Origin: Desulfarculaceae bacterium
GTDB taxonomy: Bacteria > Desulfobacterota > Desulfarculia > Desulfarculales > Desulfarculaceae
Length of the DNA: 64,000 bases
Direction: 5' to 3'
Assembly: GCA_020444545.1 (NCBI GenBank)
Contig: JAHLKT010000008.1
Location: 124,001 to 188,000, forward strand
Positions 5,184 through 34,738 of the stretch are shown here, piece by piece. Numbering within the stretch: position 1 is the first letter of the stretch; the number at the start of each line of letters is the position of its first letter. Under the pieces are notes generated by a model, which ran no database searches, was not told the DNA's origin, and was given only the letters and a program-made list of their open reading frames with translations. A program made the translations under genes and the position numbers.

Positions 5184-6467
5184 CTAGCTGTCCCCATTTT
5201 CCTCGATATTGAATATACGTCTAACTAGAGCTAACTGTTCTCTCCTGGTGTCCTCGCTCTTGTCGTGGCTGGCGTGCTTTACGAACATGATGGGGTCGTG
5301 GATGAGCTTCTTGACCAGGGCCAAGGTGAGGCGATCCAGGGCGGCGGCCTGCTCCGGGTCGCTGATGCCCAGGTCCTTGAGGGTGCGGCTCAGCTCGGCG
5401 GCGCGAATACCCTCGGCCTTGGCGCTCAGGGCGCTGATGGTGGGCACCGCTTCCAGGCCCTTGAGCCAGGCCATGAACTTGACCACCTCCTGGGCCACGA
5501 TGCTCTCGGCCTCCCCGGCGGCCTCGGCCCGGGAGGCCTTGCCCGCCTCCACCACCGAGCTCAGATCGTCGATGTCGTAGAGGTAGCAGCCGTCCAGCTC
5601 GCCCACCGCGGGCTCCACGTCGCGGGGCACCGCGATGTCGATGAAGAACAGGGGCCGCCCGCGCCGTTTTTTAAGGGCCGAGCGGGCCATCTCCAGGGTG
5701 ATCACCGGCAGCATGGAGCCGGTACTGGCGATCACGATGTCCACCTGGCCCAGGAGCTTGGGCATGTCCTTGAGCTCCAGGGCCTCGCCGCCAAAGGGCC
5801 GGGCCAGCTCCACCGCCCGCTCCAGGGTGCGGTTGGCCACCAGAACCCGGCCCGCGCCCTGGCCCACCAGGTGCTCCAGGGCCAGCTCGGCCATCTCCCC
5901 GGCCCCCACCACCATCACCGCGAGGCCCTCCAGGGAGTCGAAGATCTTTTTGGCCAGCTCCACCGCCGCGAAGGAGATGGACACCGCCGCCCCGCCGATG
6001 TTGGTTTCCGAACGCACCCGCTTGGCCACCTGGAAGGTCTTGTGCAGCAGGCGGTTCAGGACCGCGCGGCTGGTCCCGGCCATGGCCGCCGTGCGGTAGG
6101 CCTCTTTTATCTGGCCCAGAATCTGGGGCTCGCCCACCACCAGGGAGTCCAGGCTGGAGGCCACCCGGTAGAGATGGCGCACCGCGTCGGTGTCCTGGTG
6201 GGTGTAGAGATGGGGCGCGATCTCCTCGGCGGCCACCCCCCGGCCGTGGGCCAGCCAGCGGGCCACCTCGCCGGGGTCGGCGTCTTCGTCCATCACCGCC
6301 AGGGCCTCCACCCGGTTGCAGGTGGAGACCAAAAAGGCCTCGCGCACCCCGGGCAGGGCCGCGCAGCGCTCCAGCTCGCCGCCCACCGCCTCGGGCGGCG
6401 GGGCCAGACACTCGCGCACCTTGAGCGGCGCGCTCTTGTGGCTCAGGCCCACCAGAACGAGCTTCAC
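5184..6467 (-). CDS. hemA: Glutamyl-tRNA reductase
   Basis: A 427-residue NADPH-dependent enzyme that reduces glutamyl-tRNA(Glu) to glutamate-1-semialdehyde, the first committed step of C5 tetrapyrrole synthesis. The catalytic Cys50 lies in STCNRVE, next to the canonical SHKSAP segment at residues 9-14. GEPQILGQIKEAY is the family signature. MVVGAGEMAELALEHL is the NADPH-binding turn, and the C-terminal part is the helical dimerisation domain. Length is typical. Its start overlaps the stop of the upstream ccsA/hemX gene by 4 bases (ATGA type), so translation is coupled. The last residues (NIEENGDS) run into less GC-rich sequence next to the foreign gene at 4668. Confidence 0.97.
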   Translation of the reverse strand: MKLVLVGLSHKSAPLKVRECLAPPPEAVGGELERCAALPGVREAFLVSTCNRVEALAVMDEDADPGEVARWLAHGRGVAAEEIAPHLYTHQDTDAVRHLYRVASSLDSLVVGEPQILGQIKEAYRTAAMAGTSRAVLNRLLHKTFQVAKRVRSETNIGGAAVSISFAAVELAKKIFDSLEGLAVMVVGAGEMAELALEHLVGQGAGRVLVANRTLERAVELARPFGGEALELKDMPKLLGQVDIVIASTGSMLPVITLEMARSALKKRRGRPLFFIDIAVPRDVEPAVGELDGCYLYDIDDLSSVVEAGKASRAEAAGEAESIVAQEVVKFMAWLKGLEAVPTISALSAKAEGIRAAELSRTLKDLGISDPEQAAALDRLTLALVKKLIHDPIMFVKHASHDKSEDTRREQLALVRRIFNIEENGDS

Positions 6468-7309: not shown

Positions 7310-8001
7310 TCGTCGGACCTCCCTTCCGAAGCCAGGCCCTCCGGGCCCAGGCCCAGCTCAGCCAGGCTGAAGCCCGGCCCCAGCTCGCGGGCCAGAAGCG
7401 CCTCCACCCCCACGGCGTCGCCCCCCGCCACCAGATCGAACAGCTCCGAGTCCACCAGCTTGTAGAACACCGGGCGGTTTTCCACGGCCGGACGGCCCAG
7501 GGCGGTGAGGCGGGCGCGGCAGGCCCTGAGCAGGGCCAGGTAGGGACCCCACTCGGGGCCGAAGTCTTTTTGCAGACGCTGGCGCAGGCGGCGGGCGGCG
7601 GCCGGCGAGGCCCCCCCGGTGCTCACCGCCACGGTAAGCTCGCCCCGGCGCACCACCGCCGGCACGATAAAGGAGCACAGGGGCGGCACGTCCACCACGT
7701 TGACGAAGACCCGCGCCTCTTCGGCGGCGGCGGCCACGGCGCGGTTGAGCGTCTCGTCGTCGGTGGCACAGACCACCAGCCAGGCGCCAGCCAGGTCTTG
7801 GGGCATGAAGCCGCGCTCAATGAACTCCACCTTTGGCCCCTGGGCCAGCTCGCGGGCCTCTGGGGTCAGACGGGGCGAAACCAGGCGCACCCGCGCCCCG
7901 GCCTCCAACAGGGAGACCAGCTTGCGCGTGGCCACCTGGCCGCCGCCCACCAGGAGCACCAGGCGGCCGTCAAGGTCCAGCAGGGCGGGATAATAGGTCA
8001 A
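7306..8001 (-). CDS. Precorrin-2 dehydrogenase / sirohydrochlorin ferrochelatase (CysG N-domain type)
   Basis: A 231-residue protein equal to the N-terminal part of CysG (Met8/SirC class). It carries an NAD-binding Rossmann turn (LLVGGGQVATRK, residues 15-26), the VVCATDDETLNRAVA segment, the VNVVDVPPLCSFIVPAVVRRG stretch and the STGGASPAAARRLRQRL helix. It oxidises precorrin-2 to sirohydrochlorin and may insert iron, giving sirohaem, the cofactor of dissimilatory and assimilatory sulfite reductases. There is no methyltransferase (CysG C-domain) fused. It is first in the operon with ccsA/hemX and hemA, so sirohaem or haem d1-type supply and C5 entry are co-expressed. Confidence 0.93.
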   Translation of the reverse strand: MTYYPALLDLDGRLVLLVGGGQVATRKLVSLLEAGARVRLVSPRLTPEARELAQGPKVEFIERGFMPQDLAGAWLVVCATDDETLNRAVAAAAEEARVFVNVVDVPPLCSFIVPAVVRRGELTVAVSTGGASPAAARRLRQRLQKDFGPEWGPYLALLRACRARLTALGRPAVENRPVFYKLVDSELFDLVAGGDAVGVEALLARELGPGFSLAELGLGPEGLASEGRSDE

Positions 8002-8069
8002 AAGGCTACTCCCCTAAAACGTCTCCGGCCAAGCATAACACCTGACCGGCCCTGGGGAAAGGCAAGCGA

Positions 8070-8097
8070 AAGGGGCCTCCCGCGCGGGAAGCCCCTT
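8070..8097 (-). terminator. GC-rich hairpin after the cytidylate-kinase-like gene
   Basis: AAGGGGC-CTCCCG and CGGGAA-GCCCCTT form a stem with a 2-base centre. It lies 25 bases beyond the stop of the 8122-8730 gene and before the sirohaem operon. There is no long U tract (only CCTTTCG), so it may be a weak terminator or a 3'-end stabiliser for the atp transcript. Confidence 0.45.
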
Positions 8098-8121
8098 GAA
8101 AGCCGTCGGAAAGGGCCCCTT

Positions 8122-8730
8122 TTACAGGGCGGCCTTGACGATGGACACCGCCTTGTCGAACTGGAAGTCCAGGGTGGCCATGTTGATAACCAGCGAGTAG
8201 GCCGTGGCGTCGTCCCAGGAGCGCTTGAAGAAGTGCTTCACGAAGCCCGAGCTGATGCGGTCCTGCCGCTCGCACTCGGACTGGGCGTCGCGGCTGTCGC
8301 AGCGGTCCAGACCGGCGCAGCGCCGGGCGCGGGCCTCCAGGGGAGCCACGGTGCGGAAGTGGCGCACCTCCGGCGCGTCGGCCAGGATGTACTGGCTGCC
8401 CCATCCCACGATGATCGCGTCGCCTTCCTGGGCCACGCCCAGGATGAGCTCCTTGACCGCCTTTTGGTAGCTGGTGTCGTCCAGGGCCGCCTCGGGCTTC
8501 TGGGCGATGCGCCGGACGGTGTGCAAAAACACATCGTCCACCCACTTGAACAGGTGGTTGTCCTCGCCGCGCCGCATGAGCTCGGCTTCGCCTTCGCTCA
8601 TGTCCAGGCGCTTGGCCAGCTCGGCCAAGACGCCGCGGCCCACCAGGCTGTAGCCCAGCTCGTCGGCCAACCTCTGCGCCAGGGCCTGGCCGCCGGAGGC
8701 ATATTCCTTGCTGATGGTGATGACGGCCAT
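8122..8730 (-). CDS. Cytidylate kinase-like family protein
   Basis: A 202-residue protein of the cytidylate-kinase-like (CMP kinase 2) family. It starts ITISKEYASGGQALAQRLADELGY, where the P-loop region is degenerate (SGGQALA instead of GxxGxGK[ST]). GRGVLAELAKRLD and the IIVGWGSQYILAD beta strand are also typical. The usual CMP kinase nucleotide contacts are only partly kept, so ATP-dependent kinase activity is not assured. It sits 8 bases after atpF and is probably the last gene of the F0 operon. Its link to energy metabolism is by context only. The start ATG at 8730 follows the GGGGTAAACAGGCC spacer. Confidence 0.8.
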   Translation of the reverse strand: MAVITISKEYASGGQALAQRLADELGYSLVGRGVLAELAKRLDMSEGEAELMRRGEDNHLFKWVDDVFLHTVRRIAQKPEAALDDTSYQKAVKELILGVAQEGDAIIVGWGSQYILADAPEVRHFRTVAPLEARARRCAGLDRCDSRDAQSECERQDRISSGFVKHFFKRSWDDATAYSLVINMATLDFQFDKAVSIVKAAL

Positions 8731-27635: not shown

Positions 27636-27777
27636 GCCATGGCTGCAATTAATTCCCCGGGTGGCCCAGACAGCTTGCCTGTCTGGGTCGCCGAGCCTTG
27701 GCGAGGCGACAAGAGGTCCGGCGGGCGGCCTCGATTTCAGGGGGAACCCTCGGTAGGCCCGTCAGCTCTGTTTCAAG

Positions 27778-27820
27778 CAGAGATTGCCGCGTCGCTGCGC
27801 TCCTCGCAATGACAAGGGTT
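27778..27820. repeat. R1 interspersed repeat, copy b
   Basis: CAGAGATTGCCGCGTCGCTG then CGCTCCTCGCAATGACAAGG. It is followed 23 bases later by R2 copy a, the same order as in the other two repeat clusters. Confidence 0.85.
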
Positions 27821-27842
27821 GTTTTTAATTAGTTGAGAAGGT

Positions 27843-27914
27843 GTAGGGGCGGGGTTTATCCTCGCCCGAGGGTGCTTGGAAAAAAGAAAAGGCGGGGATA
27901 AACCCCGCCTCTAC
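27843..27914. repeat. R2 inverted repeat, copy a
   Basis: GTAGGGGCGGGGTTTATCCT and its near-complement GGCGGGGATAAACCCCGCCT enclose about 30 variable bases. This is a REP/MITE-like palindromic unit of 72 bases. Confidence 0.85.
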
Positions 27915-27978
27915 AAAGATTTTCTATTACCGGCCGCTATCGAATCTCCCCGCTCCCCGCGATGACAAACTGATTCAG

Positions 27979-28962
27979 TTACTTGTCCGGCTTGCCTTCG
28001 GCCAGGCGCTCCCGCAGCGCGGTCCGGCGGCGGCGGCTGACGGGCAATGCCGCCCCGGCCACGGGCAGCACGGCCAGGTACTGCCCCTCGCTGCGCTCCA
28101 GGCCGCTCACGTGCCTGAGGTTGACCAGGTGGGAGCGGTGGATCTGCACGAAATCACGCTCCGGCAGCTGCTCGGTGAGGCTCTTGAGGGTCATGCAGGC
28201 GAAGAGGTTCTTGGGGCCCTCGCCGCCCAGGTAGTGGATGCGGCAGTAGTGGTCCTCCACCGTGACATGGGTGATGCGGGCCAGGGAGATACGGCTCTGG
28301 CGGCCGTCGTGGCTGATGCTGATCGCCGCCGGGGGGGCCGGGGCCTCGGCGGTCTGGGCCACGGCGGCCGTGGGCTGGGGCGCGGTGCGGGCGGCGGCGG
28401 CCCGTTGGCGCAGCACCTTTTGCCAGGCCAGGGCGCTGCGGATCACCGCGAAGGTGGCCACGGTCCAGGCCGCGCCGCAGAACAGGAGCATGTTCAGCAG
28501 GCTGGGCCGCAGGTGGGGGGCTTGGCGCAGGAAGGCCACCAGGTCGGGAGCGTAAAAGGGCACCAGGTGGACCATGAGCAGGCGGTGCAGCAAGAAGCCC
28601 AGCAAAAAACCCAGCCCCCAGACCATCCACTGGCGGGCCACGGTGCGCTGGTCGTAGGCGCTCCAGCGGGGCAGGAGCAGGCGCAGCGCCACCTCGGCCA
28701 GGATGACCCCGGCGAGGTAGGTCAGGGACAGGTGCAGGGCGTAGGTGAAGTAGAAGGTCAGGTGGTCGAACATGAAGGCGTGGTGGCGCAGCAGGGCCTT
28801 GCCGGCCAGCACCGCCATGAGGAAGAAGAAGCCGAGCTGATAGTACAGGAGCCTCCGGTGGGCGGGATGGGCGCAGAAGTTGCCCAGGGGCCGCCGCAAA
28901 TAGGCCAGCGGCAGATGCCAGAGGCCCCGGAGGGGGGGTGGGAATGTTGCCAGGGCGGCCAT
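27979..28962 (-). CDS. Membrane-anchored LytTR transcription regulator, copy 1
   Basis: A 327-residue protein. Residues 40-185 contain four to five membrane helices (LLYYQLGFFFLMAVLAGKAL, FTYALHLSLTYLAGVILAEV, WMVWGLGFLLGFLLHRLLMV and one near 155-180). A Pro/Ala-rich linker follows. Residues 222-322 form a LytTR DNA-binding domain (RISLARITHVTVEDHYCRIHY, DFVQIHRSHLVNLRHVSGLE, LPVSRRRRTALRERL). It faces away from the outer-membrane protein gene at 29366, with about 400 bases between them, and probably regulates it in response to a membrane signal. Copy 2 is at 31037-32026. Confidence 0.9.
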   Translation of the reverse strand: MAALATFPPPLRGLWHLPLAYLRRPLGNFCAHPAHRRLLYYQLGFFFLMAVLAGKALLRHHAFMFDHLTFYFTYALHLSLTYLAGVILAEVALRLLLPRWSAYDQRTVARQWMVWGLGFLLGFLLHRLLMVHLVPFYAPDLVAFLRQAPHLRPSLLNMLLFCGAAWTVATFAVIRSALAWQKVLRQRAAAARTAPQPTAAVAQTAEAPAPPAAISISHDGRQSRISLARITHVTVEDHYCRIHYLGGEGPKNLFACMTLKSLTEQLPERDFVQIHRSHLVNLRHVSGLERSEGQYLAVLPVAGAALPVSRRRRTALRERLAEGKPDK

Positions 28963-29148
28963 GGTCGTCTCTTACTGTGGGTGCCTGAGTGGCGGGCAGA
29001 TGGCCAACTAGTCGCCGTTAAGGAAAATTTTAGCCTAACCCGCCGCTGAGAGCAATGCGTATGCGCGCCTCGCGGGCGGCGAGAGCCCACCGTTGGCGAA
29101 AAAGCGCCCGCCGCCCGCGCAGGGCGGCCTCCGACGGCGTAACCTCGC

Positions 29149-29177
29149 TTGAGACCTCCGCAAGTCTTCCTGATGAT
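29149..29177 (+). promoter_or_regulatory. Candidate promoter of outer-membrane protein gene 1
   Basis: TTGAGA, 17 bases, GATGAT. The equivalent site of copy 2 (32166-32194) reads TTGCGG, 17 bases, AATGAT, and both are preceded by different sequence. The shared spacing supports a real promoter, with a leader of about 180 bases. Confidence 0.5.
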
Positions 29178-29264
29178 TGGCAATACAGGACGCGCTTTCC
29201 AGGGGCCTTTTTCGGCCCCGAGGGCGGTTCCTGGCCGTGGCGGCCGCCCCGGCCGGCCGAGTCG

Positions 29265-29365
29265 GGGGTGAGCCCGGCCCGGAAAGGGTGGCCGCGGGCC
29301 CGGCTCCTCTTGGCTGAAGGGGCCGGTGAGAGATCTCAACCAATGTTTCAGGAGGAAGGGTCGAT
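29265..29365 (+). promoter_or_regulatory. Conserved 5' leader of outer-membrane protein gene 1
   Basis: GGGGTGAGCCCG begins exactly 101 bases before the ATG, as in copy 2, and a GGCTC...CTTGG block lies about 60 bases before it. GC-rich arms around these blocks can pair. It ends in the ribosome site AGGAGG. It may be a regulatory RNA element. The rest of the 28963-29264 gap shows only the promoter and no gene. Confidence 0.45.
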
Positions 29366-30523
29366 ATGAAAAAGTGGCTTATCCTTACCCTAGCCGTGAT
29401 GCTGGGGTTGGCGGCGGCGTCTCCCGCCTGGGCGGTGGACACCTCCACCTACACCTTTGAGCTGCAAGCTCGTATGCTCACCGACATCGGCTGGTGGAAC
29501 AAGAGCCAGGAGCTGACCAACAACGGCTCCGACGACGTGGGCACCTGGTTTCTGACCTTGCCCGGCCACAGCTACTTGCAGGCGCGTTTCTACAGCGTAG
29601 ACAAGAACGTGGGCGGCCGCATCGAGCTGGGCCTCAAGAGCGTGCAGCCCGACGCCACCGTGAGCCTGCGTTACGCCTACGCCTATTGGCGGGTGGGCAA
29701 CTGCCGCATCCTGGCCGGCCAGACCGACAACTGGTTCGGCTCCCTGGCCTATCACATCCGGCAGTACGTGGGCCTGGAAGAAAACGCCCACCTGTTGATG
29801 TTCGGCTGGGGCTTCCTGTGGCCCCACCGCGTGCCGCAGGTGCAGTTCACCTACAACACCGACAAGTGGGGCATCCAGTTCGCGCTGGAGGAGCCGCGCC
29901 AGAAGACCAACCTGTTCGACGCGGGCGGCACCACCGACGCCGCCTTCATGTTCCCCCGGGCCAGCCTCACCTTGATGTTCAGGTACGGCGGCTTCATGAC
30001 CCACCCGGGCTTCAACTTCGTGAACCACAAGTACGAGTCCGGCAGCACCGGCGCCTTTGACGACTCCTACAACACCTGGGCCTTTGTCCTGCCCATCAAG
30101 TACACCATCGGCGCCTTCACCCTGAAGTTCCAGGGCCACTACGGCATCAACTTCGCGACCGAGTATCCCTTCTTCCCGGTGGATCTGACCCAGCCCTATC
30201 GCAACGGCATCGACACCGGCGGCATCGACGACACCACCATCTACGGCGGCGTGCTGGCCGGGGAATACCAAATCGGCAAGATCATGGTCACCGGCGGCGT
30301 GGGCTACGAGAACTTCTCCAACGACGCCTGGTCGGGCAAGAACGGCTACTCCAAGGACGAGAACGTGCGCTTGGGCGCCTTCATCGCCGTGCCCTACCAG
30401 TTCACCAAGAACTTCGGGGTGCACCCGGAGTTCTCTTACTACTCCTATGGCGACGACCCCAAGACCGGCAACGGCATGGGCAACGAGTGGCTGCTGGGCG
30501 TGCAGTTCCGCTTCGTTTTCTAA
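29366..30523 (+). CDS. Outer-membrane beta-barrel protein, copy 1
   Basis: A 385-residue protein with signal peptide 1-23 (KKWLILTLAVMLGLAAASPAWA) and a mature part rich in alternating aromatic and polar strands (YLQARFYSVDKNVGGRIELG, SLRYAYAYWRVGNCRILAG, KYTIGAFTLKFQGHYGINF). It ends in FRFVF, the C-terminal Phe signal for the BAM complex. It is probably a porin or porin-like channel. Start ATG at 29366 follows AGGAGG. It is about 70% or more identical by eye to copy 2 at 32334. The ligand is unknown. Confidence 0.88.
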   Translation: MKKWLILTLAVMLGLAAASPAWAVDTSTYTFELQARMLTDIGWWNKSQELTNNGSDDVGTWFLTLPGHSYLQARFYSVDKNVGGRIELGLKSVQPDATVSLRYAYAYWRVGNCRILAGQTDNWFGSLAYHIRQYVGLEENAHLLMFGWGFLWPHRVPQVQFTYNTDKWGIQFALEEPRQKTNLFDAGGTTDAAFMFPRASLTLMFRYGGFMTHPGFNFVNHKYESGSTGAFDDSYNTWAFVLPIKYTIGAFTLKFQGHYGINFATEYPFFPVDLTQPYRNGIDTGGIDDTTIYGGVLAGEYQIGKIMVTGGVGYENFSNDAWSGKNGYSKDENVRLGAFIAVPYQFTKNFGVHPEFSYYSYGDDPKTGNGMGNEWLLGVQFRFVF

Positions 30524-30553
30524 ACTCCTTTCCAACGCCCGAAATCACCCCAT

Positions 30554-30586
30554 GGGGGCCCGGCGCCATCCGGGCCCCCACTTTAT
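30554..30586 (+). terminator. Terminator of outer-membrane protein gene 1
   Basis: GGGGGCCCGG and CCGGGCCCCC around CGCCAT, followed by ACTTTATT. The stem and preceding 25 bases are almost identical to those of copy 2. Confidence 0.8.
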
Positions 30587-30874
30587 TGGGGTGGGTGAAA
30601 AAGTGTTTTTGGTTGGCCGGCGGCTTGTCTGCCGGGGTTGCGTGGCGTCAGGGGCGCAACAAGAGAGGCTTCCGGCTTGGTCCGACCGCATGACAATTCC
30701 AAGGAAGATTGCCACGGCGCGGCGGGAGTAGCCGCCCGCTCCGGGCCGCCCACCCGGCCGCCGCGCCTCGCAATGACAGCTATGGCTGGATGGGGCGGGC
30801 GGGCACCCGGCTAGGCCCGGCCCAATTTCCTTTTTCCTAACCTCTTTTTTAGGCCTGCGCTCCCTCCTAGCGGG

Positions 30875-30916
30875 CAGAGATTGCCGCGTCGCTTCGCTCC
30901 TCGCAATGACAAGGGT
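30875..30916. repeat. R1 interspersed repeat, copy c
   Basis: CAGAGATTGCCGCGTCGCTT then CGCTCCTCGCAATGACAAGG. It is preceded by CTCCTAGCGGG, which is also found before copy d at 33603, so the repeat clusters share flanking sequence. Confidence 0.88.
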
Positions 30917-30940
30917 TTATTTGGTTTAGTCAATGCAGAT

Positions 30941-31012
30941 GTAGGGGCGGGGTTTATCCCCGCCCGAGAGAGTTTGGCAAAAGAAAAGGGCGGGGATAAA
31001 CCCCGCCCCTAC
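30941..31012. repeat. R2 inverted repeat, copy b
   Basis: GTAGGGGCGGGGTTTATCCC with complement arm GGGCGGGGATAAACCCCGCC ending CCTAC; 72 bases. Same unit as 27843 and 33669. Confidence 0.88.
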
Positions 31013-31036
31013 ACCGGAAAAGACCCTTATTAAGGC

Positions 31037-32026
31037 CTACTTGTCCGCCTTGCTCTTGGCCAGGCGCTCCTGTAGCTCGCTCCAGCGCTGGCGGCTGATG
31101 GGCAGCTCCACCCCCGCGGCGGGCAGCTCGGCCTGGTACTTGCGCCCGTCCTTGCTCAGCCCGCCCAGGTGGCGCAGGTTGACCAGGTGGGAGCGGTGGA
31201 TCTGGGCGAAATCCTCGGGCGGCAGCTCTTCGGCCAGGCTTTTCAGGGACATGCAGGCAAAGAGGTTCTTGGGGACCGCGCCGTCCAGGTAGTGGATGCG
31301 GCAGTAGTGGTCTTCCACGGTCACGTGGGTGATGCGCTCCAGGGGGATGCGGGTCTGGCGGCCGTCGTGGCTGATGGTGATCGCCGCCGGGGGGGCCGGC
31401 TGGGCCGGAGCCTGGCCGGCCTGGGGCGCGGCGCGCTTTTGCAGCTTCAGGGCGGTCTGCAACACCGCCAAGCTGGCCAGCAGCCAGGCCGTACCGAAAA
31501 AGGCGAATATTTCTATTTGGCTGGGGCTGGCCTCCGGGTGGGTGCGCAGAAACTCCACCAGCCAGGGGGCGTAGTAGACGATCAGGTGGCTGGCCACCAG
31601 GCGGTGGAGCAAATACCCCACCACAAAGCCCGCCCCCCACATGACCCACTGGCGGGCCACGGTGCGGCGCTCATAGGCGCTCCAGTCCGGCAAGAAGCGC
31701 TTGAAGGCCCAAGCCGCCAGCAGGATGCCGATGAAGTAGTTGACCGCCAGGTGCACGGTGTAGGTGCAGTAAAAGGCCAGGTGCGCGGTGAGGAAGTCCC
31801 GCTGCCAGGTGAGGGCCGCGCCGGCCATCACCGCCAGCAGAAAGAACAGGCCCAGCTTGTAATAGAGAAGCTGCCGGTTGGTGGGGCTGGCCACGAACGA
31901 GGCCAGGGGCCGCCGCAGAAAGGCGCGGGGCAACCGCAGCAGGGTTTGCCAAGACTCGGGTGGAAACACTTGCGCCGCCATGGCTATGTCCGGATTCCGG
32001 GTGCAGCGGCCGTATGGGCCGTACAT
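31037..32026 (-). CDS. Membrane-anchored LytTR transcription regulator, copy 2
   Basis: A 329-residue paralogue of the 27979-28962 protein, similar along the whole length. Helices lie near residues 50-75, 85-110, 125-150 and 160-185. A Pro/Ala linker is followed by the LytTR domain (RIPLERITHVTVEDHYCRIHY, DFAQIHRSHLVNLRHLGGLS, LPISRQRWSELQERL). The divergent partner is the outer-membrane protein gene at 32334. The N-terminal extension MYGPYGRCTRNPDI before MAAQVFPPESW may not be translated: copy 1 begins MAALATFPPPL, so the ATG at 31984 is a possible alternative start. Confidence 0.9.
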   Translation of the reverse strand: MYGPYGRCTRNPDIAMAAQVFPPESWQTLLRLPRAFLRRPLASFVASPTNRQLLYYKLGLFFLLAVMAGAALTWQRDFLTAHLAFYCTYTVHLAVNYFIGILLAAWAFKRFLPDWSAYERRTVARQWVMWGAGFVVGYLLHRLVASHLIVYYAPWLVEFLRTHPEASPSQIEIFAFFGTAWLLASLAVLQTALKLQKRAAPQAGQAPAQPAPPAAITISHDGRQTRIPLERITHVTVEDHYCRIHYLDGAVPKNLFACMSLKSLAEELPPEDFAQIHRSHLVNLRHLGGLSKDGRKYQAELPAAGVELPISRQRWSELQERLAKSKADK

Positions 32027-32165
32027 CCCTCCCTTTGTCCTAGATTATAACCCTACCCCGGGGGCCGGGCAACGCCGGGAGCCCTTTCGTCAATGGGCAG
32101 GGCGTCCCATTCGCGCACAAACCGGGCCGGCTGGCGCACAAACCTCCCGCGCCGCGAAAGCCGCC

Positions 32166-32194
32166 TTGCGGCTCCTGCCTATCTTCCCAATGAT
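32166..32194 (+). promoter_or_regulatory. Candidate promoter of outer-membrane protein gene 2
   Basis: TTGCGG, 17-base spacer, AATGAT, matching in form and spacing the site before copy 1. The predicted leader is about 130 bases. Confidence 0.45.
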
Positions 32195-32232
32195 TAAACG
32201 CACATAAGCCGCTTTCTCCGGCCTGGCGGGCC

Positions 32233-32333
32233 GGGGTGAGCCCGAGGCAAGGGAGGGCGGCACGTTTCCGGGTGGCTCTTGGAAACGCGAAAAACAAACC
32301 TTGGAAGAATCAACGAGAGGAGACCTGGTCACC
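32233..32333 (+). promoter_or_regulatory. Conserved 5' leader of outer-membrane protein gene 2
   Basis: GGGGTGAGCCCG again starts 101 bases before the start codon, and GGCTCTTGG lies 60 bases before it. Sequence between the blocks has diverged from copy 1, so these short conserved blocks may be under selection. Confidence 0.45.
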
Positions 32334-33491
32334 ATGAATAAGCTATTTACCCTAGCCCTGGCGGCGATGCTGGTGGTGGCGGCGGCGGTCCCGGCCCTGG
32401 CCGTGGATCCCTCCACCTACACTTTCGAGATGGCCGCCCGTATGCTGACCGACATCGGTTGGCAGCAAAAGAGCCAGGAGCTGACCAACAACGGCTCCGA
32501 CGACGTGGGCTCCTGGTTCCTGAACCTGCCCGGCCACAGCTACCTGCGCGCCCGCTTTTTCAGCGTGGACAAGAACGTGGGTGGCCGCATCGAGCTGGGG
32601 CTCAAGAGCATCGACGCCTCGGCCACGGTCAGCCTGCGTTATGCCTACGCCTATTGGCGGGTGGGCAAGTGCCGCATTCTGGCCGGCCAGACCGACAACT
32701 GGTTCGGCTCCACCGCCTACGCCCCCAAGCAGTACCTGGGCCTGCAAGAGAACTCCCACCTGCTGATGTTCGGTTGGGGCTATTTGTGGCCCGGCCGTGT
32801 CCCCCAGGTGCAGCTGACCTATGACACCAACAAGTGGGGCGTGCAGTTCGCCCTGGAGGGCCCCCGTCAGAACGACAACTACTACGACTCCGAAGACACC
32901 ACCGACACCGTCTACCTGTTCCCCCGCGCCAGCCTGACCTTCATGTACAAGCACGGCGGGTTCATGACCAACCCCGGATTCAGCTTCGTGCAGCACCGCT
33001 ACGAGGCCGGCAACTCCGGCGCCTTTGACGATCCCTACAACACTTGGGCCGTGGTGCTGCCCATCAAGTACAGCATCGGCGCCTTCACCGCGAAGTTCCA
33101 GGGCCACTACGGCATGAACTTCGCCACCGAATATCCCTTCTACTCCGCCACCTGGACCAAGCCCTACCGGGCCGAGATCACCTCCGGCGAGATCGAGGAC
33201 ACCGCCATCCTGGGTGGCATGCTCTCCGGCGAATACACCATCGGCAAGCTGATGCTCATCGGCGGCGTGGGCTACGAGAACTTCTCCAACGACGCCTGGT
33301 CCGGCAAGAACGGCTTCTCCAAGGACGAAAACGTGCGCATGAGCGCCTTTGTCGCCACGCCGTACCAGTTCACCAAGAACTTCGGCATCCACCCCGAGCT
33401 GGCCTACTACTCCTATGGCGACAGCCCCAAGACCGGCGAGGACCTGGGTAACGAGTGGCTGCTGGGCGTGCAGTTCCGCTTCGTCTTCTAA
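32334..33491 (+). CDS. Outer-membrane beta-barrel protein, copy 2
   Basis: A 385-residue paralogue of the 29366-30523 protein, of the same length. Signal peptide NKLFTLALAAMLVVAAAVPALA, then near-identical blocks SYTYTFE-type start, SQELTNNGSDDVG, GGRIELGLKS and the end NEWLLGVQFRFVF with terminal Phe. The proposed ATG at 32334 follows AGGAGA by about 10 bases; an upstream ATG at 32301 has no ribosome site and no counterpart in copy 1. Differences cluster in probable loops (QNDNYYDSEDTTD against QKTNLFDAGGTTD), as expected for barrels that diverge in surface exposure or ligand. Confidence 0.88.
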   Translation: MNKLFTLALAAMLVVAAAVPALAVDPSTYTFEMAARMLTDIGWQQKSQELTNNGSDDVGSWFLNLPGHSYLRARFFSVDKNVGGRIELGLKSIDASATVSLRYAYAYWRVGKCRILAGQTDNWFGSTAYAPKQYLGLQENSHLLMFGWGYLWPGRVPQVQLTYDTNKWGVQFALEGPRQNDNYYDSEDTTDTVYLFPRASLTFMYKHGGFMTNPGFSFVQHRYEAGNSGAFDDPYNTWAVVLPIKYSIGAFTAKFQGHYGMNFATEYPFYSATWTKPYRAEITSGEIEDTAILGGMLSGEYTIGKLMLIGGVGYENFSNDAWSGKNGFSKDENVRMSAFVATPYQFTKNFGIHPELAYYSYGDSPKTGEDLGNEWLLGVQFRFVF

Positions 33492-33523
33492 GCTCCTTTC
33501 CAACGCCCACCAAATCACCCCAA

Positions 33524-33555
33524 GGGGGCCCGGCGCCATCCGGGCCCCCTTTTTT
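33524..33555 (+). terminator. Terminator of outer-membrane protein gene 2
   Basis: GGGGGCCCGG and CCGGGCCCCC around CGCCAT, directly followed by TTTTTT. Confidence 0.9.
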
Positions 33556-33602
33556 GGTTTGTGATTGTGGGCTATTACAGCTTTGGAGCGCCTCCTAGCG
33601 GG

Positions 33603-33645
33603 CAGAGATTGCCGCGTCGCTTCGCTCCTCGCAATGACAAGAGTT
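33603..33645. repeat. R1 interspersed repeat, copy d
   Basis: CAGAGATTGCCGCGTCGCTT then CGCTCCTCGCAATGACAAGA. Flanked on the left by CTCCTAGCGGG as at copy c. Confidence 0.88.
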
Positions 33646-33668
33646 TGTTTGCATTGGACAAGGCGGAT

Positions 33669-33741
33669 GTAGGGGCGGGGTTTACCCCCGCCCGAGAGAG
33701 CGCCGGACAGAGCAAAGGGCGGGGATAAACCCCGCCCCTAC
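33669..33741. repeat. R2 inverted repeat, copy c
   Basis: GTAGGGGCGGGGTTTACCCC with right arm GGGCGGGGATAAACCCCGCC ending CCTAC. One base change in the left arm compared with copy b. Confidence 0.88.
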
Positions 33742-33799
33742 GCCGGAAAGATTTTCTTTCACCAACCGCCTCCTCATCCCCCTGCCCCCTCCTGGCGAA

Positions 33800-33883: not shown

Positions 33884-34738
33884 TCAGACCCAGGCGGTGG
33901 CCAGGTGGTAGAGGTCGCCCACCATGAGGCCGTCGGAGCGGCCCGCGAAGTAGCGCTCGTTGATCTGCTCTTTGCCCAGGTCCTTCACCAGGCTGAAGCC
34001 CAGCTCGTCCAGCAGGGCGGTCATCTCGGCGGGCGCGAAGTTGGTCAGCCAGGGCTCCCCGGCCGCGGCCGAGAACCCGGCCAGGGCCTTGTAGGCCAGG
34101 CGGCCCCGCATGTCCAGGACCTCGGGCGACTGAGGATAGTCCAGGACCACCCCGGAGCCCGGGGGGCAGGCGGCAATGTAGCCCAGGGTGGCCTTGATCG
34201 CCTCCAGGGTGAGGTAGGGCGTGACCCCCAGCCAGGCGAACAAGGACGGCACCCCGGGGTCGAAGCCCGCCGCTTCCAGGCCCGAGGCCAGGGTTTGCTC
34301 ATGGAAGTCCACCGGCGCGTAGCTGAGTTCCGGCGGCGCGGCGATGCCCGCCTGGGCCAGGCGCTCCCGTTTCCAGGCCTGGGTGGCCGGGTGATCCACC
34401 TCGAAGACCCTTAGCGCCTCGGGCGGGTGGGGGTTGCGATAGGCGAAGGTGTCCAGGCCCGCCCCCAGGATCACGTACTGCCCCACCCCGTGCTCCAGGC
34501 CGGCGGCCAGCTGGTCCTCGGCCAGGCGGCTGCGAGCGGCGGCGAAGGCCCGCAAAAAGCGCGAGGCCGGCGAAGACTCGGCCAGGGAGGGCTTGGCGAT
34601 GAGGGCGGCGGCCTTGTCCCGCCCCAGCATGGCCAAGGCCAGGGGGTCTTCCAACACCGGGGGGTGGTCCAGGAGCTGATGGGCCGCGCGGTGCAGAGCC
34701 ATGCGCTCGGCGGTATGGCTGGCTTTATCCTCGATCAT
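33884..34738 (-). CDS. SAM-dependent methyltransferase, LCM/PPM family
   Basis: A 284-residue protein of the leucine-carboxyl-methyltransferase-like family (TIGR00027 type). VILGAGLDTFAYR is the SAM-binding signature of this group, RVFEVDHPATQAWKRERL the acidic loop, and FAWLGVTPYLTLEAIKATL the conserved mid part. Some relatives methylate small polyketide-like or carboxyl groups; the substrate here cannot be told. Start ATG at 34738 follows GGGGGAATCC. It stands alone and converges on the repeat cluster. Confidence 0.85.
   Translation of the reverse strand: MIEDKASHTAERMALHRAAHQLLDHPPVLEDPLALAMLGRDKAAALIAKPSLAESSPASRFLRAFAAARSRLAEDQLAAGLEHGVGQYVILGAGLDTFAYRNPHPPEALRVFEVDHPATQAWKRERLAQAGIAAPPELSYAPVDFHEQTLASGLEAAGFDPGVPSLFAWLGVTPYLTLEAIKATLGYIAACPPGSGVVLDYPQSPEVLDMRGRLAYKALAGFSAAAGEPWLTNFAPAEMTALLDELGFSLVKDLGKEQINERYFAGRSDGLMVGDLYHLATAWV

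Follow-up and report, generated by a model that had tools for sequence, protein, structure and literature searches.

Two tandem divergent pairs of a membrane-bound LytTR regulator and a porin, with a predicted operator, in a Desulfarculaceae genome

Does a membrane-bound transcriptional regulator control the outer-membrane porin gene that it faces? The question is raised by a locus on contig C8 of a Desulfarculaceae genome (4.38 Mb) where, within the analysed window of 64,000 nucleotides, two divergent gene pairs stand in tandem at 27979-33491: R1(-)/B1(+), followed by R2(-)/B2(+). Each R gene encodes a predicted LytTR regulator and each B gene a predicted porin. The genes, their domains and folds, the duplication, relatives with a single copy or an empty site, and an operator and promoter layout restricted to regulator-paired genes were computed, and from these we infer DNA binding, activation, sensing and a substrate. 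We conclude that each pair probably forms a self-contained unit of regulator and target, in which R most likely activates its own porin through a predicted tandem operator.

The gene pairs and their predicted operator

R1 (27979-28962, minus strand; 327 amino acids) and B1 (29366-30523, plus strand; 385 amino acids with signal peptide) are matched by their paralogs R2 (31037-31981, minus strand; 314 amino acids) and B2 (32334-33491, plus strand; 385 amino acids). The regulators share 59% amino-acid and 76% DNA identity and the porins 75% and 82%, with 2 gap columns, while the intrinsic terminators of the porins (30553-30580 and 33522-33551, both on the plus strand) are 93% identical across 43 nucleotides. 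Tandem copies of the unit, with paralogy extending over both genes and the terminators of the porins, had been described in an initial annotation of this DNA and were confirmed at its coordinates. The leaders, parts of which had also been proposed to be paralogous, showed only partial likeness, although their alignment exceeded chance (score -26 versus -75 +/- 14 for shuffles). The start proposed for R2, 32026, would add 15 codons and was revised, since close relatives align from the methionine at 31981, which by homology is probably the true start.

Intergenic regions were compared for all nine members of the regulator subfamily, which face a porin (four), a small secreted protein (four: G003, G004, G007 and a contig-end fragment in G020) or a methyltransferase (one: G010). 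The pattern [G/A]CGNMA-N6-TTG was present in 9/9 regions, with the TTG opening a -35-like hexamer directed at the divergent target; in 1,000 dinucleotide-shuffled sets it occurred in 0.25 regions on average and never in more than 3. Another half-site precedes the proximal one by 20 bp (19 bp in G003), and porin-type units carry a third, 21 bp further upstream. Because this layout recurs with three unrelated kinds of target, the site follows the regulator rather than the target. Among 23 unpaired porin promoters of the same family the proximal half-site arrangement was found in none.

In the window, the predicted R1 operator (29096-29142, plus strand) comprises the half-sites GCGAAA (29096-29101), GCGCAG (29117-29122) and GCGTAA (29137-29142), and the predicted R2 operator (32113-32159, plus strand) comprises GCGCAC (32113-32118), GCGCAC (32134-32139) and GCGAAA (32154-32159). 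The two GCGCAC half-sites form a perfect direct repeat, GCGCACAAACC, and one R2 half-site reads TTCGCGCA. Immediately downstream are the predicted plus-strand promoters of B1 (TTGAGA-N17-GATGAT, 29149-29177; -35 at 29149, -10 at 29172) and B2 (TTGCGG-N17-AATGAT, 32166-32194; -35 at 32166, -10 at 32189), whereas the regulators have predicted promoters on the minus strand (R1, TTGCTC-N17-TAAAAT, 29027-29055; R2, TTGCCC-N17-TATAAT, 32044-32072) in a layout that is alike in R1, R2, G001 and G007. The B1 and R2 promoters also emerged from an unguided consensus scan, which gave 3 matches versus 0.5 expected. The -10 hexamers of the targets are poor. These predicted sites back the idea, already put forward in the initial annotation, that each regulator acts on the adjacent porin.

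Activation is favoured because the site is upstream of the -35 hexamer and the -10 hexamers are weak, and activators of the LytTR class are usually sited upstream of the -35 (PMC11347149). In such a mechanism R would be expressed from its own promoter and would insert into the inner membrane via four helices, offering its LytTR domain to the DNA. This domain would bind two or three direct GCG-type half-sites, separated by about two turns of the helix and placed just ahead of the porin -35, and in one signal state the bound LytTR domain would recruit polymerase to a porin promoter with a weak -10. The membrane domain would set this activity in response to an envelope or ligand signal, and the output would be more of a porin whose close relatives stand under other promoters.

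The opposite sign was also considered, namely that R represses the adjacent porin until a membrane signal relieves it, as CoxC does at the cox promoter. CoxC likewise combines membrane anchoring, a LytTR domain and a tandem operator, and it represses (PMC11347149). However, the CoxC operator overlaps the -35, while in all nine regions here 6 bp separate the end of the proximal half-site from the -35 downstream of it, an activator position, and the poor target -10 hexamers also argue against repression. We consider a repressor unlikely.

It is less likely still that the operator serves autoregulation of R, or that the porin is one of many targets in a wide envelope regulon like that of HigX, for which hundreds of chromatin immunoprecipitation (ChIP) peaks have been reported (PMC13384398). 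The operator pattern does occur 23 times in the source genome (both strands), but a reversed-pattern control gave 13 matches, so most genome-wide matches are expected by chance; moreover, the sites abut the target promoter and lie ~41 bp from the -35 of R, and the other porin copies are without operator sites. An attempt to define a regulon by the operator pattern could not name further targets, as chance matches were too many.

Several points weigh against activation of the adjacent porin through this operator. The genome-wide excess over the reversed control is only modest (23 versus 13), the nine regions are related and hence not nine independent draws, the half-sites are short and degenerate, and their spacing departs from 20 bp in G003. 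The precedent of CoxC makes the sign uncertain, and the membrane domain belongs to no recognised family, so its sensing role is a guess.

Regulator and porin architecture compared with known systems

The initial annotation had called R a membrane-bound LytTR protein, and this was supported by a C-terminal LytTR domain (E 1.8e-16 in R1 and 6.7e-15 in R2), the only Pfam domain above cut-off, and by transmembrane helices in the structural model. An AlphaFold2 model of R1 (mean predicted local distance difference test score, pLDDT, 77) contains an N-terminal helix, four long hydrophobic helices that would span the membrane (residues 33-56, 68-96, 108-137 and 155-193), a disordered linker and a LytTR fold (213-322). 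The latter superposes on solved LytTR domains (Z 15.3 to 3d6w and 13.8 to AgrA, 3bs1); the structural match was confined to this part. By hydropathy and a model of moderate confidence, R1 thus has four N-terminal transmembrane helices and no periplasmic sensor domain, the latter because the predicted outer-face loops are short (~11-17 residues). A Pfam scan found neither a receiver domain nor an MHYT match in R1 or R2. Taken together, R1 is predicted to be a membrane-bound one-component LytTR regulator, and since a periplasmic domain appears absent and the modelled outer loops are short, a sensing role is plausible for its membrane helices.

The absence of a nearby kinase, noted initially, was confirmed for the genes checked around both pairs, which encode an isopropylmalate dehydrogenase, an acetolactate decarboxylase, a membrane transporter, an acetyl-CoA hydrolase/GNAT protein, methyltransferases, a xanthine permease and PurL. 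With no receiver domain and no kinase among these neighbours, R1 and R2 do not match the LytS/LytR two-component system. The genome encodes only one other LytTR protein, a conventional response regulator whose gene adjoins that of a histidine kinase on contig C4. That pair is directly adjoined by an array of twelve tandem paralogs (L057:219-6017) encoding a small secreted protein of ~100-136 amino acids with the motif AYAIYNH.

The architecture of the regulator is HigX-like, and membrane-bound one-component LytTR proteins are already known in HigX and CoxC. HigX of Caulobacter has four transmembrane helices, a linker and a LytTR domain, no periplasmic domain, a conserved divergent neighbour and envelope targets (PMC13384398). 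R shares with it the four N-terminal helices, the predicted lack of a periplasmic domain, the linker, the C-terminal LytTR domain, the lack of a kinase, a conserved divergent neighbour and targets related to the envelope, but the HigX motif is an inverted repeat without spacer and its neighbour is a hydrolase (PMC13384398). When a single alphaproteobacterial (Sneathiellales) LytTR protein with four transmembrane helices, not HigX itself, was compared by hhalign, only the LytTR domain aligned. CoxC, an MHYT-LytTR repressor that responds to CO, uses tandem direct repeats; its sites, like those of RcoM, are TTNNNGCN / TTCNNGCA repeats separated by some two turns (PMC11347149). It resembles R in being a membrane-bound one-component LytTR protein with tandem direct half-sites at about this distance, and differs in its seven transmembrane helices, its MHYT motifs and its repressing role, as R1 has four helices and no MHYT match. 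In LytTR regulatory systems (LRS, e.g. HdrRM and BrsRM) the LytTR domain is likewise under a multi-helix membrane part without a periplasmic domain (PMC13384398). There, a distinct protein whose gene adjoins the LytTR gene acts as the membrane inhibitor, whereas R is a single fused protein, and no small membrane gene was found downstream of R on its strand.

For B1, an AlphaFold2 model (mean pLDDT 87, predicted template modelling score 0.81) shows a 16-strand barrel after the signal peptide. Its best solved match by Foldseek was DcaP of Acinetobacter baumannii (6eus; E 1e-16, TMq 0.70), followed by PorB, OmpT and other general porins. A 16-strand barrel is common to B1 and DcaP or the general porins (6eus, PorB, Omp32), but sequence identity to B1 is at most 16%. 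No curated family passed its cut-off (Porin_2, 16.8 bits versus 22), and no relatives in the PDB were found by sequence. B1 is therefore classed by fold as a general or DcaP-like porin, with a predicted channel role, and the import function suggested in the initial annotation may be read from the porin fold. Among the papers listed by a literature search, none described a pair of LytTR regulator and porin. What would be new here is the porin partner, the likely operator sites and a structured RNA leader, all of them predictions.

Distribution and history of the unit

The same-family relatives of the source genome are Desulfocarbo indianensis and Desulfarculaceae metagenome-assembled genomes (MAGs). 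A search of 60 genomes, the source genome included, found the porin in 22. Our own tally from the search table, requiring an alignment of at least 300 residues, counted 56 copies in 21 genomes, often in tandem arrays, of which only four were paired with the regulator. The source genome has five full-length copies; the three outside the window are on contigs C1 and C7, are ~73-76% identical to B2 and adjoin no LytTR gene. The barrel is thus not the 'private' one of the initial annotation. A short remnant of a porin C-terminus (G000:C3:409486-409623, L056) is probably a decayed copy.

The regulator is far rarer, with eight full-length relatives within the family and an occurrence in three genomes of a 395-genome draw from the phylum. 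Across GTDB species, relatives matched beyond the LytTR domain only in Desulfarculaceae, SAR324 and one other Thermodesulfobacteriota MAG; one SAR324 protein aligned by hhalign across both the membrane and LytTR parts, and the operator was not found at this homolog. According to the initial annotation, the unit would be refuted if either gene occurred without the other as a rule in relatives. This was the case for the barrel; on the regulator side, four of the eight full-length family members are paired with a porin, and the remainder stand opposite a gene for a small secreted protein or for a methyltransferase.

The small secreted proteins form a family of ~160-180 amino acids (L061:5359-5865, L062:7304-7855 and 7868-8395, L063:6075-6554, L101:618-1127), divergent from this regulator type in four genomes and sharing the operator layout; the one member scanned had no Pfam match. 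In D. indianensis (L064:6231-8379) the regulator faces a methyltransferase gene that clusters by similarity with the leucine carboxyl methyltransferase-like gene beside module 2 of the window (33884-34738).

In a tree of the regulators, the four porin-paired proteins formed one group (100/100), within which R1 grouped with the regulator of G001 (97/95). A recent duplication in place was ruled out, as R1 is 81% identical to a regulator of another species versus 59% to R2. In G007, the corresponding flanking genes enclose a single divergent unit of porin and regulator, whereas in G001, G002, G004 and G005 these flanking genes adjoin and the unit is absent there; G001 carries a unit of the R1/B1 type on another contig. 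By sequence comparison, the window appears to hold a tandem arrangement of a unit present singly elsewhere, its copies having parted before the split from G001. R1 and R2 are best seen as switches that have diverged since a single unit was duplicated long ago, and their differing half-site sets would fit two partly separate switches. The paired porins were not recovered as one clade, requiring 3 changes on the porin tree, because porins cluster by genome.

These data also bear on whether the neighbourhood is accidental, a multi-copy porin having landed beside an unrelated regulator before the two were duplicated together. Such an origin would suit a porin that is multi-copy and spread across several loci, and a regulator that has other partners in relatives. 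Nevertheless, all four regulators of the porin-paired clade share the same divergent layout with a porin, and the paired porin promoters carry an operator that the unpaired ones lack; coincidence is hence very improbable.

Composite interspersed repeats border the modules: at the left of module 1 (27777-27915), between the modules (30863-31016) and at the right of module 2 (33591-33745). On the minus strand, the hairpins of the first two read as the terminators of R1 and R2, respectively. Each repeat consists of a AGATTGCCGCGTCGCTTCGCTCCTCGCAATGACA element and a GTAGGGGCGGGGTTTATCCCCGCCC hairpin; the three are 86-88% alike and are the longest copies in the genome, and partial copies occur throughout the genus. 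A role in recombination is conceivable, but the unit in G007 is without such borders. Matches to miRNA-like Rfam families fell on the interspersed-repeat hairpins and were taken as chance.

Porin homogenisation and a shared leader RNA

Comparison of porin copies revealed long identical tracts within coding regions. The C1 porin (L054:6073-7227) and the C7 porin near metK (L053:5899-7053) share 939 identical bases in a run inside the gene, while their leaders (200 nucleotides) are 61% alike, roughly the level of unrelated sequence in such an alignment. In G007, a 903-base identical run joins a paired and an unpaired copy (L060:5217-6365 and the L072 porin starting at 5572), so the paired gene encodes nearly the same porin as a copy under a different promoter; this run may stem from an assembly error in a short-read MAG. 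In the porin pairs with such tracts the leaders and downstream flanks are unrelated. The sequences indicate that gene conversion keeps the porin coding regions alike and that their promoters differ; no recent conversion tract was found between B1 and B2. Since related porins are multi-copy under other promoters, each pair in the window would add a further switch to a common type of porin.

A GGGGTGA box stands 97-115 nucleotides before the start codon of many porin copies, whether paired or unpaired; in the serA-locus copies it forms the loop of a hairpin that a second stem encloses. An alignment of ten sequences drawn from two genera has 96% of its cells paired, and 10 of 14 pairs change on both sides; 38 cells change on both sides, compared with 11 +/- 3 after shuffling and no more than 8 after sliding, figures that are favoured by the fitting of the alignment to the structure. 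Porin leaders with this covarying two-stem element are L125-L131, L138, L020 and L022. In genome searches with the leader model, all matches with E <1e-4 were upstream of porins, the next (G015, E 0.002) being near other genes, and no Rfam match was found at the element. In the window, hairpins with a GGGGTGA loop are at 29245-29290 for B1 (plus strand; 14.4 bits) and 32214-32255 for B2 (plus strand; 16.3 bits at 32210-32259, and 16.6 bits), weak scores at the position expected for the family. Base pairing of the GGGGUGA loop with the anti-Shine-Dalgarno sequence is feasible (-10.1 kcal/mol), and a role in ribosome binding or sequestration is a possibility.

A tentative picture for the Desulfarculaceae, which we hold as possible rather than probable, is one porin with many switches: conversion-homogenised porins would have their own promoters, some with a dedicated membrane-anchored LytTR activator, and many would share an undescribed structured mRNA leader whose conserved loop, matching the anti-Shine-Dalgarno, would add a common translational control. 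Membrane-bound LytTR regulators with a defined operator and a defined local target are few. This subfamily offers a repeated natural experiment, in which one regulator type is combined with three kinds of target at a fixed geometry of operator to promoter, and two diverged copies side by side permit a comparison of specificity. In a family of sulfate reducers that has received little study, the locus also connects the number of porin copies with gene conversion and a structured leader.

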